Shown piece by piece: positions 3,726 through 11,038 of a stretch of 64,000 nt of DNA. This DNA comes from Roseococcus sp. SDR (GTDB lineage Bacteria; Pseudomonadota; Alphaproteobacteria; Acetobacterales; Acetobacteraceae). The position numbers were made by a program, and so were the translations under genes. A model generated the notes under the pieces. It was not told where the DNA came from and searched no databases. It worked only from the letters and a program-made list of their open reading frames with translations. Location of the stretch: contig NZ_JAHRCU010000008.1 in assembly GCF_019083995.1 (NCBI RefSeq), positions 124,001 to 188,000 on the forward strand. Direction: 5' to 3'. Position 1 is the stretch's first letter. Every line of letters begins with the position of its first letter.

Positions 3726-4862
3726 ATGGATCTGCCGCTGACGGGGCTCACCGTGATCGAAGTGGGCCAGGCGCTGGCCGGGCCCTTGGCCGGCGTGGTG
3801 CTGGCCGATATGGGCGCCGATGTGATCAAGGTGGAAAAGCCCGATGGCGGGGATGATGCCCGCCTTTGGGGCCCGCCCTATGGGCCGGACGGCGTCACCT
3901 CGCTCTATTTCCACGGGCAGAACCGCTCCAAGCGCTCCATCACGCTCGACCTCAAGAAGCCCGAGGACGTGGCCGAGCTGCATCGGCTGTGTGAGAGCGC
4001 CGACATCCTGATCCAGAACCTGCGCCCCGGCGTGGTGGAGGAGATCGGCATCGGGCCGGAGGCGATGCTCGAGCGGCATCCACGCCTGATCTACTGCTCC
4101 ATCTGGGCCTTCGGTTTCGAGGGGCCGATGAAGATGAAGCCGGGCTTCGACCCGCTGCTCCAGGCCTATGGCGGGATGATGAGCGTGACCGGCCAGCCCG
4201 ATGGCCCGCCCACCTTCTGTGGCGCCTCGATCAACGACAAGGCGACGGGGCTCTTCATCACCATCGGGGCACTTGCGGCGCTGCGCTGGCGCGACCGCAC
4301 GGGAAAGGGCTGCCTGGTGGATGGCAGCCTCTTCGAGACGGCGGCCTTCTGGGTGGAGGGGCAGATCAACAACCACCTGGCCACCGGCGACATCCCGCAG
4401 CGGCACGGCACGGGGGCGGCGGTGATCGTGCCCTACCAGGTCTTCGACACGGCGGACCGGCCTCTGTGCCTCGCCGCCGGCAACAATCGGCTCTTTGCCC
4501 GCGCGGCCAAGGTGATGGGGCATCCCGAATGGGCGGAGGATCCGCGCTTCGCCACCGGCGGCAACCGCGTGCGCAACAAGGATGCGCTGATCCCGCTGAT
4601 CAAGGCCGTGCTGCTGACGCGCCCGCGCGACGAATGGCTGGCCGAGCTGGATGCCGTCGGCGTGCCGAGCGGGCCGGTGAATGACATCGCGGAGGTCACG
4701 GCCAGCCCGCAAATGGCGGCGGTGGATCTGATCCAGGACCTGCCGGGCGGCGGCCCGAAGGTCATTGGCCTGCCGCTCTCCTTCAACCGGCAACGCCCGA
4801 AGCCGCGCAGCGATTCGCCCAAGCTCGGCGCGCATAACCGCGAGATCCTGGGGCGGGATTAG
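3726..4862 (+). CDS. Family III CoA-transferase (CaiB/BaiF family)
   Basis: These enzymes move CoA from one acyl-CoA to a free carboxylic acid through an aspartyl-CoA intermediate. The 378-residue protein starts with the family's LTVIEVGQALAGPLAG motif and contains GFDPLLQAYGG with the expected catalytic Asp at 142. The substrate cannot be read from sequence. A GGAGGG-type ribosome site lies just before ATG 3726. The gene faces the GntR regulator, and their stop codons overlap in a TTAG tetramer at 4859-4862. It may be independent of the operon beyond the regulator. Confidence 0.9.
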   Translation: MDLPLTGLTVIEVGQALAGPLAGVVLADMGADVIKVEKPDGGDDARLWGPPYGPDGVTSLYFHGQNRSKRSITLDLKKPEDVAELHRLCESADILIQNLRPGVVEEIGIGPEAMLERHPRLIYCSIWAFGFEGPMKMKPGFDPLLQAYGGMMSVTGQPDGPPTFCGASINDKATGLFITIGALAALRWRDRTGKGCLVDGSLFETAAFWVEGQINNHLATGDIPQRHGTGAAVIVPYQVFDTADRPLCLAAGNNRLFARAAKVMGHPEWAEDPRFATGGNRVRNKDALIPLIKAVLLTRPRDEWLAELDAVGVPSGPVNDIAEVTASPQMAAVDLIQDLPGGGPKVIGLPLSFNRQRPKPRSDSPKLGAHNREILGRD

Positions 4863-5491
4863 CCGTCCTGCCGGCGGCCCGCGCGGCGCACATGCCGCGC
4901 GGCGAGCAGGGCGGCGAGTTCCTCGTCGCCCTCGGAGACGGCCTCCAGGATCATCGCGTGCTCCTGCCAGTCGCGCACGGCGCGTTCGGTGCTGTTGCGG
5001 CGAAAAACGAGCTCGGTGCGTTCGCGCAGCGGGCGCATCACCTCACGCAGGGCCTGGTTGGTGCCGGCGAGCGCCAGCAGGTCATGGAATTCGGTGTTGA
5101 GCGCGGCCAGCTGCTCGGCATCGCGCTGCGGGGCCGCGGCGAGTGCGGCGCCGCGTTCCAGCAGCGCCTCGATCTCGGCTTGCGTCTTCGCGTTGCAGTG
5201 GCGCGCGGCGAGGCGTGCGGTCAGCCCTTCCAGCACGGCGCGCACCTCGATCAGGTCCCGCGCGAAATCCTCCGTCATCACCGCGACCTGCGCGCCGCGC
5301 GTGCCTTCGGCGGGCACGGCGAGGCCCTCGGCGATCAGCTGCTGGATGGCCTCGCGGATCGGCACGCGGGACATGCCGAGCTCGGCCGAAAGGCGTTCCT
5401 CCACAAGCCTTTCGCCGGGCTGGAGTGCGCCGGAGAGGATGGCGGCGCGCAGGCGCTGCAGGGCCTGGCGGCTGAGGGGTTCGCGGGTCAT
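4859..5491 (-). CDS. GntR family transcriptional regulator, FCD domain (FadR subfamily)
   Basis: This is a 210-residue DNA-binding regulator. An N-terminal winged helix-turn-helix (about 8-70, with the hallmark LSAELGMSRVPIREAIQQL) is followed by an all-helical FCD ligand-binding domain that usually senses a small carboxylate. It is divergent from the diiron-protein operon starting at 5619. Two perfect FadR-type operators lie in the shared 127-base gap, so it very probably controls that operon and itself. Loss of DNA binding on ligand binding is usual for the family; the ligand here is unknown. Confidence 0.92.
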   Translation of the reverse strand: MTREPLSRQALQRLRAAILSGALQPGERLVEERLSAELGMSRVPIREAIQQLIAEGLAVPAEGTRGAQVAVMTEDFARDLIEVRAVLEGLTARLAARHCNAKTQAEIEALLERGAALAAAPQRDAEQLAALNTEFHDLLALAGTNQALREVMRPLRERTELVFRRNSTERAVRDWQEHAMILEAVSEGDEELAALLAARHVRRAGRRQDG

Positions 5492-5498
5492 GGGTTCA

Positions 5499-5508
5499 TT
5501 GTATACGA
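5499..5508. promoter_or_regulatory. GntR/FCD operator, regulator-proximal half
   Basis: TTGTATACGA fits the FadR-subfamily consensus TNGTNNACNA exactly. It sits 8 bases upstream of the regulator's start codon, in a position to block its own expression. Confidence 0.7.
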
Positions 5509-5531
5509 AAAGGGCGCGATATGCGTCTGAT

Positions 5532-5549
5532 CTTCCCTAAATCGGGAAG
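5532..5549. promoter_or_regulatory. Central inverted repeat of the divergent control region
   Basis: CTTCCC and GGGAAG flank a 6-base centre. The centre of symmetry (5540.5) is exactly midway between the centres of the two GTATAC operators (5503.5 and 5577.5). It may be a site for a second regulator or a DNA-bending element. Confidence 0.5.
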
Positions 5550-5572
5550 GTTTCGTTTGACTCCGGCACTTC

Positions 5573-5582
5573 TCGTATACCA
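5573..5582. promoter_or_regulatory. GntR/FCD operator, operon-proximal half
   Basis: TCGTATACCA again fits TNGTNNACNA. It lies about 37 bases before the start of the diiron-protein gene and just downstream of a possible -35 element TTGACT (5557-5562), so binding here should repress the operon promoter. The -10 element is not clear. Confidence 0.7.
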
Positions 5583-5618
5583 TGCTCGCATCCTCCCCAC
5601 CGCAGGAAGGACGCGCCC

Positions 5619-6335
5619 ATGACCGCCCTGATGACCCATGACGAGTTCCGCACCGCGCTCGAGAACGCCATCAAGGGCAAGGCCGCGACCGCCTCGCCCT
5701 TCAGCATCGCCTGGGCCAATGGCACGCTGACGCGCGAGCATCTCTGCCGCTGGGCCGAGAACCACTACCACTATGTCGGCCCCTTCGCCGACTACCTCGG
5801 CTACGTCTATGCCCGCATGCCCGCGCACATGACCGAGGCCAAGGATTTCCTCCTGGCCAACATGTATGAGGAGGAGATCGGCGGCGATCGCCACACCGAC
5901 CTCTTGATCCGCTTCGCCGAGGCCTGTGGGACCACGCGGGAGCGCGTGCAGAACCCCGACAACATGTCCCCCACCACCCGCGGCCTGCAGAGCTGGTGCT
6001 ATGCGGTGGCGATGCGCGAGGACCCGGTGGTGGCCGTGGCCGCGCTGGTCGTCGGCCTCGAATCCCAGGTGCCCAGCATCTACCGCAAGCAGACGCCGAC
6101 GCTGCGTGAGAAATACGGCTTCACCGACGAGGAGGTGGAGTTCTTCGACCTGCACATCGTCTCGGATGAGATCCATGGCGAGCGCGGCTACCAGATCGTC
6201 CTCGAGCATGCGAACACGGTCGAGCTGCAGCAGAAATGCCTGCGGATCTGCGAGATCGGCGCCGAGATGCGGCTGCTCTACACCACGGCGCTGTATCACG
6301 ACTATGTCGAGCGCCGCCTCGCCGCCGCGGCCTGA
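5619..6335 (+). CDS. Haem-oxygenase-like diiron oxidase (TenA/PqqC/CADD-type fold)
   Basis: This 238-residue all-helical protein resembles the iron-containing redox enzyme family. The six ligands expected for a non-haem diiron centre are present with the spacing known from CADD: Glu85, His92, Glu148, His179, Asp183 and His186 (motif HIVSDEIH). It is therefore unlikely to be the cofactor-free PqqC or the thiaminase TenA. Family members use O2 to cleave C-C bonds, hydroxylate nitrogen or make alkenes; the substrate here is unknown. It is the first gene of an operon with two ferredoxins, plausible electron donors. A GGAAGGA ribosome site precedes ATG 5619. Family placement is strong; function is inference. 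Confidence 0.85.
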   Translation: MTALMTHDEFRTALENAIKGKAATASPFSIAWANGTLTREHLCRWAENHYHYVGPFADYLGYVYARMPAHMTEAKDFLLANMYEEEIGGDRHTDLLIRFAEACGTTRERVQNPDNMSPTTRGLQSWCYAVAMREDPVVAVAALVVGLESQVPSIYRKQTPTLREKYGFTDEEVEFFDLHIVSDEIHGERGYQIVLEHANTVELQQKCLRICEIGAEMRLLYTTALYHDYVERRLAAAA

Positions 6336-6631
6336 TGCCGAAGGTCACCTTCCACAAGGCGGGCGAGGTGCATGAGGGCGAGGTGCCGGAGAAGGGCAAC
6401 CTCGTCGTCCGCGCCGGCATCAGGAAATACCCCTGGCCGCATCTGCGCTATGGCTGCGGCATGGGCAAATGCGGCAAATGCGCCTGCCGCGTGCTGGCGG
6501 GCGGCGACGCGCTGCCCGAGCCCAATTGGAAGGAAGTGAAGCAGCTGGGCGAGCGCATCGGCGAGGGCTACCGGCTGATGTGCCAGCTCTGGCTCGAGCA
6601 TGACATCACCCTGGAACAGGATGCGGCCTGA
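6335..6631 (+). CDS. Plant-type [2Fe-2S] ferredoxin 1
   Basis: This 98-residue electron carrier has a cluster-binding pattern of Cys41-x4-Cys46-x2-Cys49 and Cys83, within YGCGMGKCGKCACRV and MCQLW. An extra Cys51 sits beside the cluster motif. The ATG at 6335 overlaps the stop of the diiron-protein gene (TGATG), implying coupled translation and a shared task. It probably delivers electrons to the diiron site. No ferredoxin reductase gene is nearby, so a housekeeping reductase would be needed. Confidence 0.9.
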   Translation: MPKVTFHKAGEVHEGEVPEKGNLVVRAGIRKYPWPHLRYGCGMGKCGKCACRVLAGGDALPEPNWKEVKQLGERIGEGYRLMCQLWLEHDITLEQDAA

Positions 6632-6930
6632 TGCCCCAATATGTGATCCTGACCAGCAAGCCCGGCCAGTTCCGCACCGAACTGACACCCGGCCTGGTTC
6701 CGGTCGAGACCTATGACTACCAGGCTCAGGGCAAGCTGCGCGCGCAATTCGTGATCGCGGAATTGCAGCACGAGACCAAGCTGCGCGTGGTGGATCTGGC
6801 CGGCGAGCCGATCCTGAACCTGGTGCCCAGCAAGTTCCTGCCCCGCTTCGCCGATCTCGATGCGGCGCGGGCGGAGCTCTCGCATCTCACCCGCTTCCGC
6901 AGCGTCGAGGCCGAGCTGGTTCGTCAATGA
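6631..6930 (+). CDS. Small protein of unknown function in the diiron operon
   Basis: I do not recognise this 99-residue protein. It has no cysteine, no signal peptide and no membrane segment. The first two thirds look strand-rich (YVILTSKPGQFRTEL and LRVVDLAGEPILNLV), and the C-terminal third is helical. Its start overlaps the stop of ferredoxin 1 (TGATG) and its end overlaps ferredoxin 2 by 4 bases, so it is made together with both. A scaffold, an effector subunit for the diiron enzyme or a ferredoxin partner are possible roles; none can be shown from the sequence. Confidence 0.8.
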   Translation: MPQYVILTSKPGQFRTELTPGLVPVETYDYQAQGKLRAQFVIAELQHETKLRVVDLAGEPILNLVPSKFLPRFADLDAARAELSHLTRFRSVEAELVRQ

Positions 6931-7256
6931 GCGAGGCTGAGGCGCCGCGCATCCGCGTGACCTTCGTGAGCAATGACGGCAAGCAGGTGGAGGCCGCGGC
7001 CGGTGGCAGCCTGCTGCGCATCTCCATCCGCGAGAAGGGCGGCATTCCCTTCAAATGCGGCGGCGGGCATTGCGGCACCTGCCGCTGCCGCTTCGAGGCC
7101 GGCCTGGAACACGCCTCCGCCGTCACGGCCAAGGAGCGCAAGCATCTGACGGAGGAGGAATTCGCCGCCGGCTGGCGCATGGCCTGCCAGACCTTCGTGA
7201 ACGGCGATGCCAGCATCTCCTGGCCGCCCAAGCCTGCTCAGGGAACCGCTGCATGA
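6927..7256 (+). CDS. Plant-type [2Fe-2S] ferredoxin 2
   Basis: This second small iron-sulfur protein, 109 residues, has Cys44-x4-Cys49-x2-Cys52 and Cys87 as cluster ligands (FKCGGGHCGTCRCRF and MACQTF). It is clearly diverged from ferredoxin 1, so the pair is not a recent duplication. One may serve the diiron oxidase and the other a different step, or they may act in series. The start overlaps the preceding gene (ATGA) and the stop overlaps the next gene. Confidence 0.9.
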   Translation: MSEAEAPRIRVTFVSNDGKQVEAAAGGSLLRISIREKGGIPFKCGGGHCGTCRCRFEAGLEHASAVTAKERKHLTEEEFAAGWRMACQTFVNGDASISWPPKPAQGTAA

Positions 7257-7732
7257 AATCCGCCCTGAAGCTCGAAACCCGCGAGGCGCGGGCGATGGTG
7301 GCCGGCGCCACGGCCAAGGCGCTGGAGATCGGCGTGCGGCAGAGCGTGTGCATCGTGGATGAGGGCGGCGTGCCCATCCTGCTGGAGCGCATGGATGGCG
7401 CCCGCATCACGGGGCCCCAGATCGCCTGGAACAAGGCCTTCACCGCGGCCGGGCACAAGCGCTCCACCCATCTGTTCAACACGCCGCCCAACGGGCCGGC
7501 TCTGCCGGGCAATGAGGCCTTCGGCATCCAATGGAGCTTCGAGGGGCGCTTCGCGGTCTTCGTCGGCGGCTTTCCCATCGTGCTGAACGGCGAAGTCGTC
7601 GGCGGCATCGGCCTCTCGGGTGGCAATGGCGAGCAGGACATCGCCTGCGGCGTGGCCGGCCTCCAGGCCCTGGCCGAGCTTCTGGGCCCCGAGGGGCATG
7701 TCGTGCAGGTCGCGGCCGACCTGAAGCTCTGA
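7253..7732 (+). CDS. GlcG/HbpS family haem-binding-like protein
   Basis: This 159-residue protein of the GlcG/HbpS/PduO-C fold (Pfam PF03928) shows the typical [19 protein letters not shown] strand region and the glycine-rich [17 protein letters not shown] ending. Members bind haem, corrinoids or small acids and often accompany oxidases and dehydrogenases of organic acids. No signal peptide is seen, so it is cytoplasmic here. ATG 7253 overlaps the ferredoxin 2 stop (ATGA). Its role in this operon is not clear; substrate or cofactor binding is a guess. Confidence 0.85.
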
Positions 7733-7802
7733 CGCCGCCCCCTGGGTTGTGCCTTCGGCGAAGCTGCCCCACCTTCTCGCCAAAGCAACCGGAGAGACCC
7801 CC

Positions 7803-9242
7803 ATGGCCGATTATCCCAACACCCTGCTGCACATCGCCGGCGAATGGCGCGAGGGCGAGGGCGGTCGCAAGATCGACGTCCTGAACCCCGCCAATGAGGA
7901 GGTGATCGGCACCGTCGCCCATGCCTCGATCAAGGATCTGGACGCGGCGCTGGCGGCCACCGAGCGCGGCTTCGCGGCCTGGCGCAAGGTCGGCACCTAT
8001 GACCGCTCCAAGATGATGCGCAAGGCGGCGGACCTGATGCGCTCCCGCGCCGATGAGATCGCCAAGCTCATGACGATGGAGCAGGGCAAGCCGCTGGGCG
8101 AGGCCAAGGTCGAGATCATGGGTGGTGCGGACACCATCGACTGGTTCGCCGAGGAAGGCCGCCGCGCCTATGGCCATGTCATCCCGGCCCGCGCCCCCGG
8201 CGTCTACCAGATGACGATCAAGGAGCCGGTCGGCCCCGTCGCCGCCTTCACGCCCTGGAACTTCCCGATCAACCAGATCGTCCGCAAGCTCTCGGCGGCG
8301 CTGACCACCGGCTGCTCGATCATCGTGAAGGCGCCGGAAGAGACGCCGGCCAGCCCGGCCGCGCTCATCAAGTGCTTCCTCGATGCCGGCGTGCCGGGCG
8401 ATGTGATCGGCCTGGTCTACGGCGTGCCGAGCGAGATCAGCTCCTACCTCATCGCGAGCCCGATCATCCGCAAGGTGACGTTCACCGGCTCCACCCCCGT
8501 GGGCAAGATGCTGGCCGCCATGGCCGGCCAGCACATGAAGCGCGTGACGATGGAATTGGGCGGCCATGCGCCGGCGATGGTCTTCGACGATGCCGATGTG
8601 GAGCACGCGGCCAAGACGCTCGCTTTCGCCAAGTTCCGCAACGCCGGCCAGGTCTGCGTCAGCCCGACGCGCTTCCTGGTGCAGGAGCGCGTCTATGACC
8701 AGTTCGTCGCGAGCTTCGTGGGCCATGCCAAGGCGCTGAAGGTCGGCAATGGCCTGGAGGCCGATACCCAGATGGGCCCGATGGCCAATGAGCGCCGCGT
8801 GCCGCAGATGGAGGTGCTGATCGCCGATGCCAAGCAGAAGGGCGCCGAGGTCGTCACCGGCGGCAACCGCATCGGCAACAAGGGCTATTTCTTCGAGCCG
8901 ACAGTGGTGGCGGGTGTCACCACCGACATGCGCGCGATGAACGAGGAGCCCTTCGGCCCCGTCGCCCTGATGCGCCCCTTCAAGACGCTGGACGAAGTGG
9001 TGAGCGAGGCGAACCGCCTGCCCTTCGGCCTCGCCAGCTACGCCTTCACCGGCAGCGGCAAGACGGCCTCCGCGCTCGCGGCCGGCGTCGAGGTGGGGAT
9101 GATGACCATCAACCACCTGGGCCTCGCCATCCCCGAAGTGCCCTTCGGCGGCGTGAAGGACAGCGGCTACGGCACCGAGGGCGGCGATGAGGCGATCGAG
9201 GCCTACCTCAACACCAAGTTCGTGACCCAGGCCGGCCTGTAA
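7803..9242 (+). CDS. NAD(P)-dependent aldehyde dehydrogenase (succinate-semialdehyde type)
   Basis: The enzyme oxidises an aldehyde to a carboxylic acid. The 479-residue protein carries the full catalytic set: Asn153 (FTPWNFP), Glu251 (TMELGGHAP) and nucleophile Cys285 ([10 protein letters not shown]). Overall it resembles GabD-like semialdehyde dehydrogenases. The start is ATG 7803 behind a GGAGAG ribosome site (7791-7796), 70 bases after the HbpS-like gene, and a strong terminator follows. It closes the operon and probably removes an aldehyde formed by the upstream oxidase. The exact substrate cannot be told. Confidence 0.92.
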
Positions 9243-9264
9243 GGCTCAGCCTCCGCCCATGATG

Positions 9265-9307
9265 AGCCCGCCGTCCGGCAGAGGCCGGGCGGCGGGCTTT
9301 CTCGTTT
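9265..9307 (+). terminator. Rho-independent terminator closing the diiron operon
   Basis: AGCCCGCCGtCCGGC pairs with GCCGGgCGGCGGGCT in a long near-perfect stem (9265-9298), followed by TTTCTCGTTT. It lies 22 bases after the aldehyde dehydrogenase stop. Confidence 0.85.
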
Positions 9308-9352
9308 CGAGCTCGGGTTGCTGGCGCCCTGGCGCTGGGCTACCCCGCGCGC

Positions 9353-11038
9353 ATGCCAAGCCGCCCCTGGATCCTGCCCTACGGCCTGCTGCTGGCCGGC
9401 TTCGCCTGGGTCTGGGCCAGCCTGCCGCTGATGGCCATTCCCAATGCGGGCGTGGATGACGCGCTCTTCGTCCGCCATGCGGCGCTGATCCTCAGCGGCC
9501 AATGGCTCGGCCCCTACACGCAGTTCACCCTGGCCAAGGGGGTCGGCTATCCGCTCTGGCTGGCGCTGACGGGCGGGCTGGCCATCCCCGCCCTGCTGGC
9601 CCAGGCGCTGCTCTATGCGGCGGCCGCGCTGCTGCTGGTGCGGGCGCTTTCGCGCTGGATCCCGCAGGAGGGCGCGCTGTTTGCTCTGCTGGTCCTGCTG
9701 CTGGCCAACCCAGGCCTCTATGGCACCGAGAACCTGCGGATCATCCGCGAGGGCTTCTACACGCCCACCCTGCTGATGATCCTGGCCCTGCTGCTCTGGT
9801 GGGTGCGCTGGTCGGGCGAGGGGCTCGCGGCGCGGCTCAGCCTCGCCGCGGCGCTGGGCCTTGCCCTCGGCCTCTTCCACCTGACGCGCGAGGAGGGGGT
9901 CTGGATCCTGCCCTTCCTGCTGGGCTGCCTGCTGCTGCGCGGCCTCGCCTTCTGGCGCGGCTGGACGCCCGCCTCCTGGCGGGCCGAGGCGGTGGCGCTG
10001 CTGGCCTGCGGCGTCATGGCCGTGCTGCCGGTGCTGGCGGTGAGCGCCATGAACGCCCGGGTCTATGGCGTCTTCCGCACCGTGGAGTTCCGCGACCCCG
10101 CCTTCATCGCCGCCTATTCGGCGCTGGCCCGCCTGGGGCCCGAGGAGCCCTCGCTCATCGTGCTGCCCCGGGCGCGGCTGCCGGAATTGTTCGCGGCGAG
10201 TCCGGCGGCGGCCGAGCTTGCCCCCTATTTCGAGGGCACCCGCGGGCAGGACTACCTCAATGTCGGCTGCCAGACCTACCGCATCACCCCCTGCGACGCC
10301 GAGTTCCGCGCCGCCTGGTTCATGTGGGCGCTGCGCGATGCCACCGTGGTCGTCGCCGGCCACACCGATGCCGTCGCGGTCCAGCGCTTCAACCTGCGCC
10401 TGGCCGAGGAGGTGAACGCCGCCTGCGCCAGCGGCCAACTCGCCTGCCTGCCGGCGCGCCACAGCCTGGCCCCGCGGTTTCGCGCCGCCTATATCCTGCC
10501 CACGCTGGGCGCCGCCTGGCAGGTCTGGACCACCGGTCTCGCGCCGGTCGGGCTGCCCGATCCGCGGCGGCTGCGCTCGGTCTATTTCTCCGGCGGGGAG
10601 CTGGAACCCCGCGGCTCGGCCTTCCTCGACGTCGTGCGCGGAGACCTCTTCGTGGACGTGCTGCGGCCGGAGGCGACGCCGCCCTATCCCTTCCCCTCGC
10701 TCGCCGTGGAGCGCGCGACACGATTGCTGCGCGGGTTGGAGGGGTGGATGCGCGTCTGGGGCATCCTGGGGCCGCTGCTGCAGGTGGCGGCGCTGCTGGC
10801 GCTGCTGGCGCTGCCCTGGCTCTGGCGCGCCCGGCCGGAGCGCGCCTGCTGGCCCATGCTGGCGCTCTGCGCGGGGGCCTATCTGATCTATGCCACCCGC
10901 GTGGCGCTGCTGGCCTATCTCGACACGGTCGCCATCCCGAGCGTGAACATGCTCTACCTCTCGCCCGCCATGCCCGCGCTTCTGCTGGGCCTCGCCTTGC
11001 CGCTGATCCTGCTGTGGCGGACGCTCCGCCGGGGCTGA
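9353..11038 (+). CDS. Polytopic membrane protein, possible GT-C-type glycosyltransferase
   Basis: This 561-residue inner-membrane protein has about nine or ten hydrophobic segments. After the first segment it carries VDDALFVRHA, an acidic loop reminiscent of the DD/DE motif of GT-C glycosyltransferases that use lipid-linked sugars. A second charged loop, LTREEGVWI, lies further on. A soluble stretch (roughly 230-430) sits between the membrane blocks. The next gene is a DPM1/GtrB-like GT2 enzyme, which often makes the lipid-linked donor for such proteins. The glycosyltransferase assignment is inference; hypothetical membrane protein is the safe call. Confidence 0.7.
   Translation: MPSRPWILPYGLLLAGFAWVWASLPLMAIPNAGVDDALFVRHAALILSGQWLGPYTQFTLAKGVGYPLWLALTGGLAIPALLAQALLYAAAALLLVRALSRWIPQEGALFALLVLLLANPGLYGTENLRIIREGFYTPTLLMILALLLWWVRWSGEGLAARLSLAAALGLALGLFHLTREEGVWILPFLLGCLLLRGLAFWRGWTPASWRAEAVALLACGVMAVLPVLAVSAMNARVYGVFRTVEFRDPAFIAAYSALARLGPEEPSLIVLPRARLPELFAASPAAAELAPYFEGTRGQDYLNVGCQTYRITPCDAEFRAAWFMWALRDATVVVAGHTDAVAVQRFNLRLAEEVNAACASGQLACLPARHSLAPRFRAAYILPTLGAAWQVWTTGLAPVGLPDPRRLRSVYFSGGELEPRGSAFLDVVRGDLFVDVLRPEATPPYPFPSLAVERATRLLRGLEGWMRVWGILGPLLQVAALLALLALPWLWRARPERACWPMLALCAGAYLIYATRVALLAYLDTVAIPSVNMLYLSPAMPALLLGLALPLILLWRTLRRG

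Follow-up and report, generated by a model that had tools for sequence, protein, structure and literature searches.

A conserved haem-oxygenase-like diiron protein encoded with its own ferredoxin pair in Roseococcus sp. SDR and other proteobacteria: a probable multi-component oxygenase

Gene content and layout of the locus

The window analyzed here is a 64-kb stretch of the genome of Roseococcus sp. SDR (Acetobacteraceae; contig NZ_JAHRCU010000008.1, positions 124,001 to 188,000), in which a first, sequence-only reading had proposed an operon for a diiron oxidase, ferredoxins and an aldehyde dehydrogenase (ALDH) at positions 5619-9242. All six genes were found where that reading had located them (Table 1): they encode a haem-oxygenase-like diiron protein (HDO), a ferredoxin (FdA), a 99-residue protein, a second ferredoxin (FdB), an HbpS/GlcG-type protein and the ALDH. 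The proposed translational coupling held for the first five genes, which overlap by their stop and start codons (TGATG at HDO-FdA and again between FdA and the 99-residue gene, ATGA between the latter and FdB and at FdB-HbpS). The last of these overlaps places the HbpS start at 7253, so that the HbpS queries used below (7256-7729) were one residue shorter. The ALDH, on the other hand, follows a gap of 70 bases and is therefore not translationally coupled. The terminator proposed downstream of it was also recovered as a hairpin of 16 pairs, 13 of them G-C; the number of terminator-like sites in 4800-9400 was ordinary (2 vs 1.6 expected), while the stem of this one was far longer than that of the other (16 vs 5 pairs).

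Table 1. Features of the HDO locus and its immediate surroundings (positions within the window)
Feature	Position	Strand	Basis
HDO, haem-oxygenase-like diiron protein (predicted), 238 residues	5619..6335	+	Haem_oxygenas_2; alignment with CADD 1rcw; ligands E85 H92 E148 H179 D183 H186
FdA, small [2Fe-2S] ferredoxin, 98 residues	6335..6631	+	Fer2 1.2e-6
99-residue protein, family without match	6631..6930	+	always accompanies HDO (84/84 loci)
FdB, second [2Fe-2S] ferredoxin, 109 residues	6927..7256	+	Fer2 1.5e-12
HbpS/GlcG (DUF336) protein, 159 residues	7253..7732	+	HbpS-like 1.7e-32
ALDH, near alpha-ketoglutaric semialdehyde dehydrogenase 5x5t	7803..9242	+	Aldedh 2.3e-159
Terminator-like hairpin with T-rich tail	9264..9299	+	terminator scan
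Divergent GntR/FCD regulator, 210 residues	4859..5491	-	GntR 3.5e-14, FCD 4.4e-20 (Pfam)
Candidate GntR operator TTGTATACGA	5499..5508		match to TNGTATACNA
Candidate GntR operator TCGTATACCA	5573..5582		match to TNGTATACNA
Class III CoA-transferase (neighbor)	3726..4862	+	CoA_transf_3 1.8e-117

Conservation of HDO and its partners

HDO matched the Pfam families Haem_oxygenas_2 (3e-37) and TENA_THI-4 (1.1e-10), both above cut-off, which places it in the haem-oxygenase-like fold family, and it carries the pattern of three histidine and three carboxylate ligands. For comparison, relatives were collected from genome contigs: 468 of 477 candidate stretches encoded them, and the best 80 of these (a ranked, not a random, sample, including Achromobacter, Cupriavidus, Variovorax, Bordetella, Noviherbaspirillum, Bradyrhizobium, Acetobacteraceae and others) together with four plasmid or megaplasmid records formed a core set of 84 loci. 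The six residues E85, H92, E148, H179, D183 and H186 were invariant in 84/84 loci and aligned in sequence with metal-site residues of CADD (1rcw), which we take to be the metal ligands of that protein. Thus the complete ligand set that had been read from the window alone was confirmed, and by homology the six residues are predicted to form a diiron site.

HDO, FdA, the 99-residue protein and FdB were present in every one of the 84 loci and HbpS in 80, and of the four loci without it three are contigs shorter than 10 kb (genes were called by a script using GC content at third codon positions, which split or extended some of them; the core counts were repeated with tblastn). The block FdA-99-residue protein-FdB was contiguous in 83/84 loci, and HDO stood immediately before FdA in 61/84. 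The window's exact five-gene order (with gaps below 200 bases) was seen in only 14/84 loci, all of them filed under Acetobacteraceae. The ferredoxin-type cysteines of FdA (Cys 41, 46, 49 and 83) were retained in 84/84 loci, as were Cys 44, 49 and 52 of FdB, whose Cys87 was retained in 83/83.

At the protein level, twelve aligned HDOs were 85-97% identical to that of the window, whereas the fourfold sites of kept HDO codons matched at just 0.54-0.71 in seven distant loci, a value that we regard as close to saturation in genes rich in GC; the resemblance is therefore not due to chance. Moreover, with a median identity to the window of 0.87 (vs 0.77 for HbpS, 0.66 for FdA, 0.63 for FdB and 0.54 for the 99-residue protein) set against this fourfold match, HDO is the most constrained part of the system.

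Among 60 relatives of the window's genome, 32 had any HDO match, and a close one (84-100%) was present in only eight, the window's genome included; the remaining matches, 20-25% identical, are probably mostly PqqC. Across 398 sampled genomes of the phylum, the HDO profile matched at 1e-20 in five and closely in four, and the 99-residue protein occurred in exactly these four (on a first look in which up to 12 candidates were scored per genome). The 99-residue protein had no Pfam, NCBIfam or PHROG match. Its structural model (predicted local distance difference test score, pLDDT, 92.5) consisted of strands and one helix and resembled nothing in the PDB at E 0.001; it is probably a docking or gating partner. 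The relatives of HbpS with solved structures include NahX and EfgA. From the likeness to EfgA we considered release of formaldehyde, an idea dropped after a literature search gave no further support.

Thus the co-occurrence in 84/84 loci, the invariant ligands and the restriction of the 99-residue protein and close HDO to the same 4/398 genomes argue for a real, strongly constrained system that is probably a multi-component oxygenase.

Regulator and candidate operators

The divergent regulator was closest to the NCBIfam model phnR_burk, far below its cut-off (96.4 vs 271.5 bits); phosphonate use, which this likeness brought to mind, was set aside when a look at the literature gave nothing. The 127 bases between the regulator and HDO contained two TNGTATACNA sites, the only ones in the 64 kb (0.00 expected in shuffles), a shape presumably typical of operators of FCD-type GntR regulators. 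A wider set of 89 loci (1.73 Mb; the 3.5-kb locus L087 and the short loci L115-L119 are excluded from all 89-locus counts) held 37 such sites in 24 loci, and 26 of the 37 fell between positions -150 and +400 relative to a cluster gene's start (in L120, to that of the Rieske gene).

In that last locus (L120, from genome G196) the Rieske-domain gene adjoins the gene of a distant HDO, ~45% identical (9269-10063), and two TNGTATACNA sites are close by; the ferredoxin and 99-residue queries had no match in the 19.5 kb read.

Fuller clusters and the aldehyde dehydrogenase

Many relatives carry a larger cluster. In Lacisediminimonas (L048; gene families named from homologues), genes for a carrier, a gamma-glutamyltransferase-like protein, HDO, ALDH, HbpS, a reductase, FdA, the 99-residue protein, FdB and TauE run in one direction, with an OCD/mu-crystallin gene and a GntR gene divergent from them and, farther out, genes for an SsuA-like binding protein, a permease and an isochorismatase-family protein. 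A reductase with FAD, NAD and Fer2 domains (Pfam) was clustered in 45/89 loci; this count is preferred to the 50 given by tblastn, which possibly includes ferredoxin matches. The window's unit, with its two ferredoxins, has no such reductase.

The carrier, a membrane protein of ~510 residues (L036:7858-9384 and homologues) with no Pfam or NCBIfam match, was found in 69/84 loci. Its model (mean pLDDT 75.6) was best matched in fold by MleN (1.2e-6), followed by IseQM, SiaQM, ArsB and VcINDY, a fold-level hint that its substrate may be anionic. Within the 398 genomes it was present in three of the four with close HDO and in no other; the window's genome lacks it.

The window's ALDH was very close to 5x5t (4e-193), which we take to be the alpha-ketoglutaric semialdehyde dehydrogenase from Azospirillum. 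Despite this proximity it scored below the equivalog cut-off for that enzyme, and indeed below every NCBIfam cut-off among the 25 matches listed (e.g., NF042993, 361.7 vs 770). Some ALDH was encoded in 65/84 loci, adjoining HbpS in 62; 17 of the 18 Acetobacteraceae loci in the core set had none in the stretch read. The ALDHs of other loci were 30-35% identical to that of the window, except in L035 and L123, the only loci with an adjacent homologue of it. For the ALDH encoded in clusters from Burkholderiales and Bradyrhizobium the best model was GucD (559.7 vs a cut-off of 770) and the nearest solved structure was betaine aldehyde dehydrogenase. By sequence, then, the ALDH step appears to recur but to be filled by two different enzymes, that of the window being a local one. 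The window's nearest relative, L035, has an enolase-superfamily gene (L035:4659-5885) between HbpS and ALDH, and for this reason the membership of the window's ALDH in the unit is likely but not certain.

These features bear on the earlier proposal of a catabolic route with an aldehyde-releasing oxidase. HDO, its dedicated ferredoxins and a catabolic-looking setting (the relatives' carrier, a GntR/FCD regulator and an ALDH) speak for it, while the ALDH of the window, on which the proposal had leaned, is not the conserved one. On balance we favor, with some confidence, a catabolic enzyme system of several components in which HDO activates O2.

Sulfur-related neighbors

A gene of the TauE/SafE family was present in 47/89 loci, distributed over 14 of 20 taxon groups (a manual grouping based on record titles and kinship lines; loci inside one group are not independent), and in 46 of the 47 it lay within 232 bp of a cluster gene. 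In 12 genomes totalling 68 Mb, TauE copies numbered 83, a background that would give ~0.025 per 20.7-kb stretch. SorA was found in 15/25 Achromobacter and 1/9 Cupriavidus loci (16/89 in total); in the single locus scored it passed the curated cut-off (688.6 vs 600). In all three loci checked a CxxCH protein stood beside SorA; a small Achromobacter open reading frame (ORF) near SorA lacks CxxCH, and the CxxCH protein lies on the opposite side of SorA. In Cupriavidus EM10 (L034) four bases separate the end of the SorAB pair from FdB of the cluster. SsuA-like binding proteins were encoded in 9/89 loci. Some loci duplicate each other: L061 and L122 are an identical contig stretch, and L035 and L041 look identical to loci of G019 and G001.

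The TauE/SafE and SorAB neighbors suggest release of sulfite. For the same reason cleavage of a C-S bond is a better lead than either of the reactions, C-C cleavage and alkene formation, that the sequence-only reading had mentioned.

Proposed reaction and alternatives

Under the reaction that we propose, a reductase, which about half of the relatives encode in the cluster, would take electrons from NAD(P)H and deliver them via FdA and/or FdB to the diiron site of HDO, with the 99-residue protein probably assisting docking or gating. HDO would oxidize a small organic anion, imported in most relatives by the private carrier, and the ALDH would remove the aldehyde formed. The likeliest chemistry would be hydroxylation of the carbon next to a sulfonate by HDO, giving a hydroxysulfonate that collapses to an aldehyde and sulfite; such a collapse would account jointly for the ALDH, TauE and SorAB neighbors. 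The sulfite would be exported (TauE) or oxidized (SorAB), and the carbon of the organosulfonate would enter central metabolism as the aldehyde. HDO as a desulfonase of this kind is the best specific reading of the data, and we hold it tentatively.

Several observations weigh against the proposed system or its desulfonation chemistry: i) the window's own cluster has no TauE, carrier or SorAB; cluster-type TauE was absent from 21 Acetobacteraceae and 13 Bradyrhizobium loci and was not found at E 1e-15 in eight such genomes, that of the window included (which has seven other TauE-family genes); ii) the cluster TauE belongs to a divergent subfamily (64.9 and 88.9 bits, no NCBIfam match), so that sulfite export by it is assumed; iii) SorA in one genus may reflect a single event, and in Achromobacter L042 it lies ~1.1 kb from HDO with two small ORFs between; iv) the SsuA-like proteins scored below the curated cut-off (80.3 and 84.9 vs 163.5); v) sulfite-oxidase-type genes did not separate Acetobacteraceae with HDO from those without it (7/8 vs 16/28), and that of the window's genome, 37 kb upstream on the same contig and nearest to SorA (4.5e-52), is too weak a match to use; vi) the candidate operators are limited to 24/89 loci; vii) other neighbors occur in some loci, namely a molybdenum hydroxylase, or a TctC receptor with an esterase; viii) apart from MboA, HDOs to our knowledge function with no dedicated partner; and ix) according to the accessible part of a 2026 review (PMC13108848), none of the HDOs studied to date requires a protein effector.

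It is quite possible, if short of probable, that the substrate of HDO is instead a carboxylic or amino acid without sulfur, converted by C-C or C-N cleavage or by hydroxylation to a product that becomes a semialdehyde, TauE then being a second organic-anion carrier and SorAB a chance neighbor. Both ALDHs resemble semialdehyde dehydrogenases (5x5t and GucD, respectively), an OCD/mu-crystallin gene, of a family that includes pyrroline-carboxylate reductases, occurred in 24/84 loci, and the lack of TauE in Acetobacteraceae and Bradyrhizobium loci is as expected for a sulfur-free substrate; moreover, characterized HDOs mostly act on fatty or amino acids, as far as the accessible part of that review goes (PMC13108848, section 4). 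The density of TauE beside the cluster, far above that of the genomes, and the presence of SorAB beside it in two genera are harder to reconcile with such an acid, and the nearness of the relatives' ALDH to betaine aldehyde dehydrogenase does not favor an oxo-acid. A pyrrole-2-carboxylate or hydroxyproline route to 2-oxoglutarate semialdehyde, suggested by the ALDHs, found no linking literature in our search. A further scheme is degradation of an N- or O-heteroaromatic acid in which a molybdenum hydroxylase hydroxylates the ring and HDO opens it. Six Acetobacteraceae loci, of which two represent one contig, do encode a xanthine-dehydrogenase-type protein upstream of HDO, and an isochorismatase-family amidohydrolase is encoded near 9/89 clusters and an esterase or alpha/beta hydrolase near a few; yet the molybdenum hydroxylase is confined to that small group, the literature search on pyrrole-2-carboxylate gave no link, and we regard the scheme as improbable.

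The best NCBIfam models and solved-structure matches of HDO, i.e., CADD, PabS and PqqC, would make it a cofactor-synthesis enzyme. Its scores, however, were far below the cut-offs of both CADD (TIGR04305, the best curated model; 98.7 vs 200 bits) and PqqC (TIGR02111; 46.6 vs 240 bits), and the ferredoxins, carrier and ALDH do not fit such a role. In CADD, Tyr27 and Lys152 are sacrificed for p-aminobenzoate, as described in the accessible part of PMC11965152. These positions align with S29 and Q158 of HDO; since the sacrificed residues are absent, CADD is not a close functional model. We rejected a CADD/PabS or PqqC identity, and regard cofactor synthesis of this kind as very improbable.

Relation to known systems

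Among solved structures the p-aminobenzoate synthases CADD/PabS (1rcw, 8va9, 9pj4) are nearest to HDO by sequence and align at all six ligands; they differ from it in having the sacrificed Tyr and Lys and in their gene setting. Another comparable system is the mangotoxin acetylenase MboA with its reductase MboB (PMC13185094), an HDO with three histidine and three carboxylate ligands served by a dedicated NAD(P)H/flavin/[2Fe-2S] partner; MboB resembles the reductase clustered in many relatives of the window's system, and the two may be the first dedicated HDO-redox pair, according to the accessible part of that report. On the other hand, MboA is a biosynthetic peptide desaturase, and the same part mentions no ferredoxin pair, 99-residue protein, ALDH or carrier. 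About a dozen HDOs have been characterized out of more than 10,000 sequences, the roles given in section 4 of the 2026 review are biosynthetic, and the word ferredoxin does not occur in its accessible part (PMC13108848).

The reaction proposed here has counterparts outside the fold. The desulfonating oxygenases SsuD, MsuD, TauD and MsmA cleave C-S bonds with O2 to sulfite and an aldehyde; they are flavin, 2-oxoglutarate/iron or Rieske enzymes, not HDOs. Similarly, bacterial multicomponent (ferritin-like) diiron monooxygenases combine an oxygenase with a small accessory protein and a ferredoxin/reductase chain, a comparable set of components built on another fold; the 99-residue protein, as described above, matches neither a Pfam family nor a PDB fold.

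In line with the sequence-only reading, no described pathway with this gene set, and no precedent for a multi-component catabolic HDO, was found in open-access full text, which omits most subscription journals. The HDO described here is conserved and apparently catabolic, and it is encoded with two ferredoxins of its own and a protein whose fold went unmatched. Should desulfonation be correct, the biological sulfur cycle would gain a new type of enzyme. HDO might then be the first of its kind to cleave C-S bonds, within a desulfonase of several components that is driven by ferredoxin, occurs in soil- and plant-associated proteobacteria and includes an accessory protein of a new family; this is a possibility that we would advance with reserve. 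As the system occurs in culturable genera (Cupriavidus, Bradyrhizobium), its substrate can be sought genetically.

Other neighboring genes

Close neighboring homologues of the window's class III CoA-transferase were limited to L035 and L123, and the gene therefore probably lies outside the conserved system. In a group of Acetobacteraceae loci the xanthine-dehydrogenase-type molybdenum hydroxylase upstream of the HDO cluster is a fused protein (L061:5035-7653), and in Bradyrhizobium a gene of the uroporphyrinogen-decarboxylase family (L096:14716-16062) lies near it.

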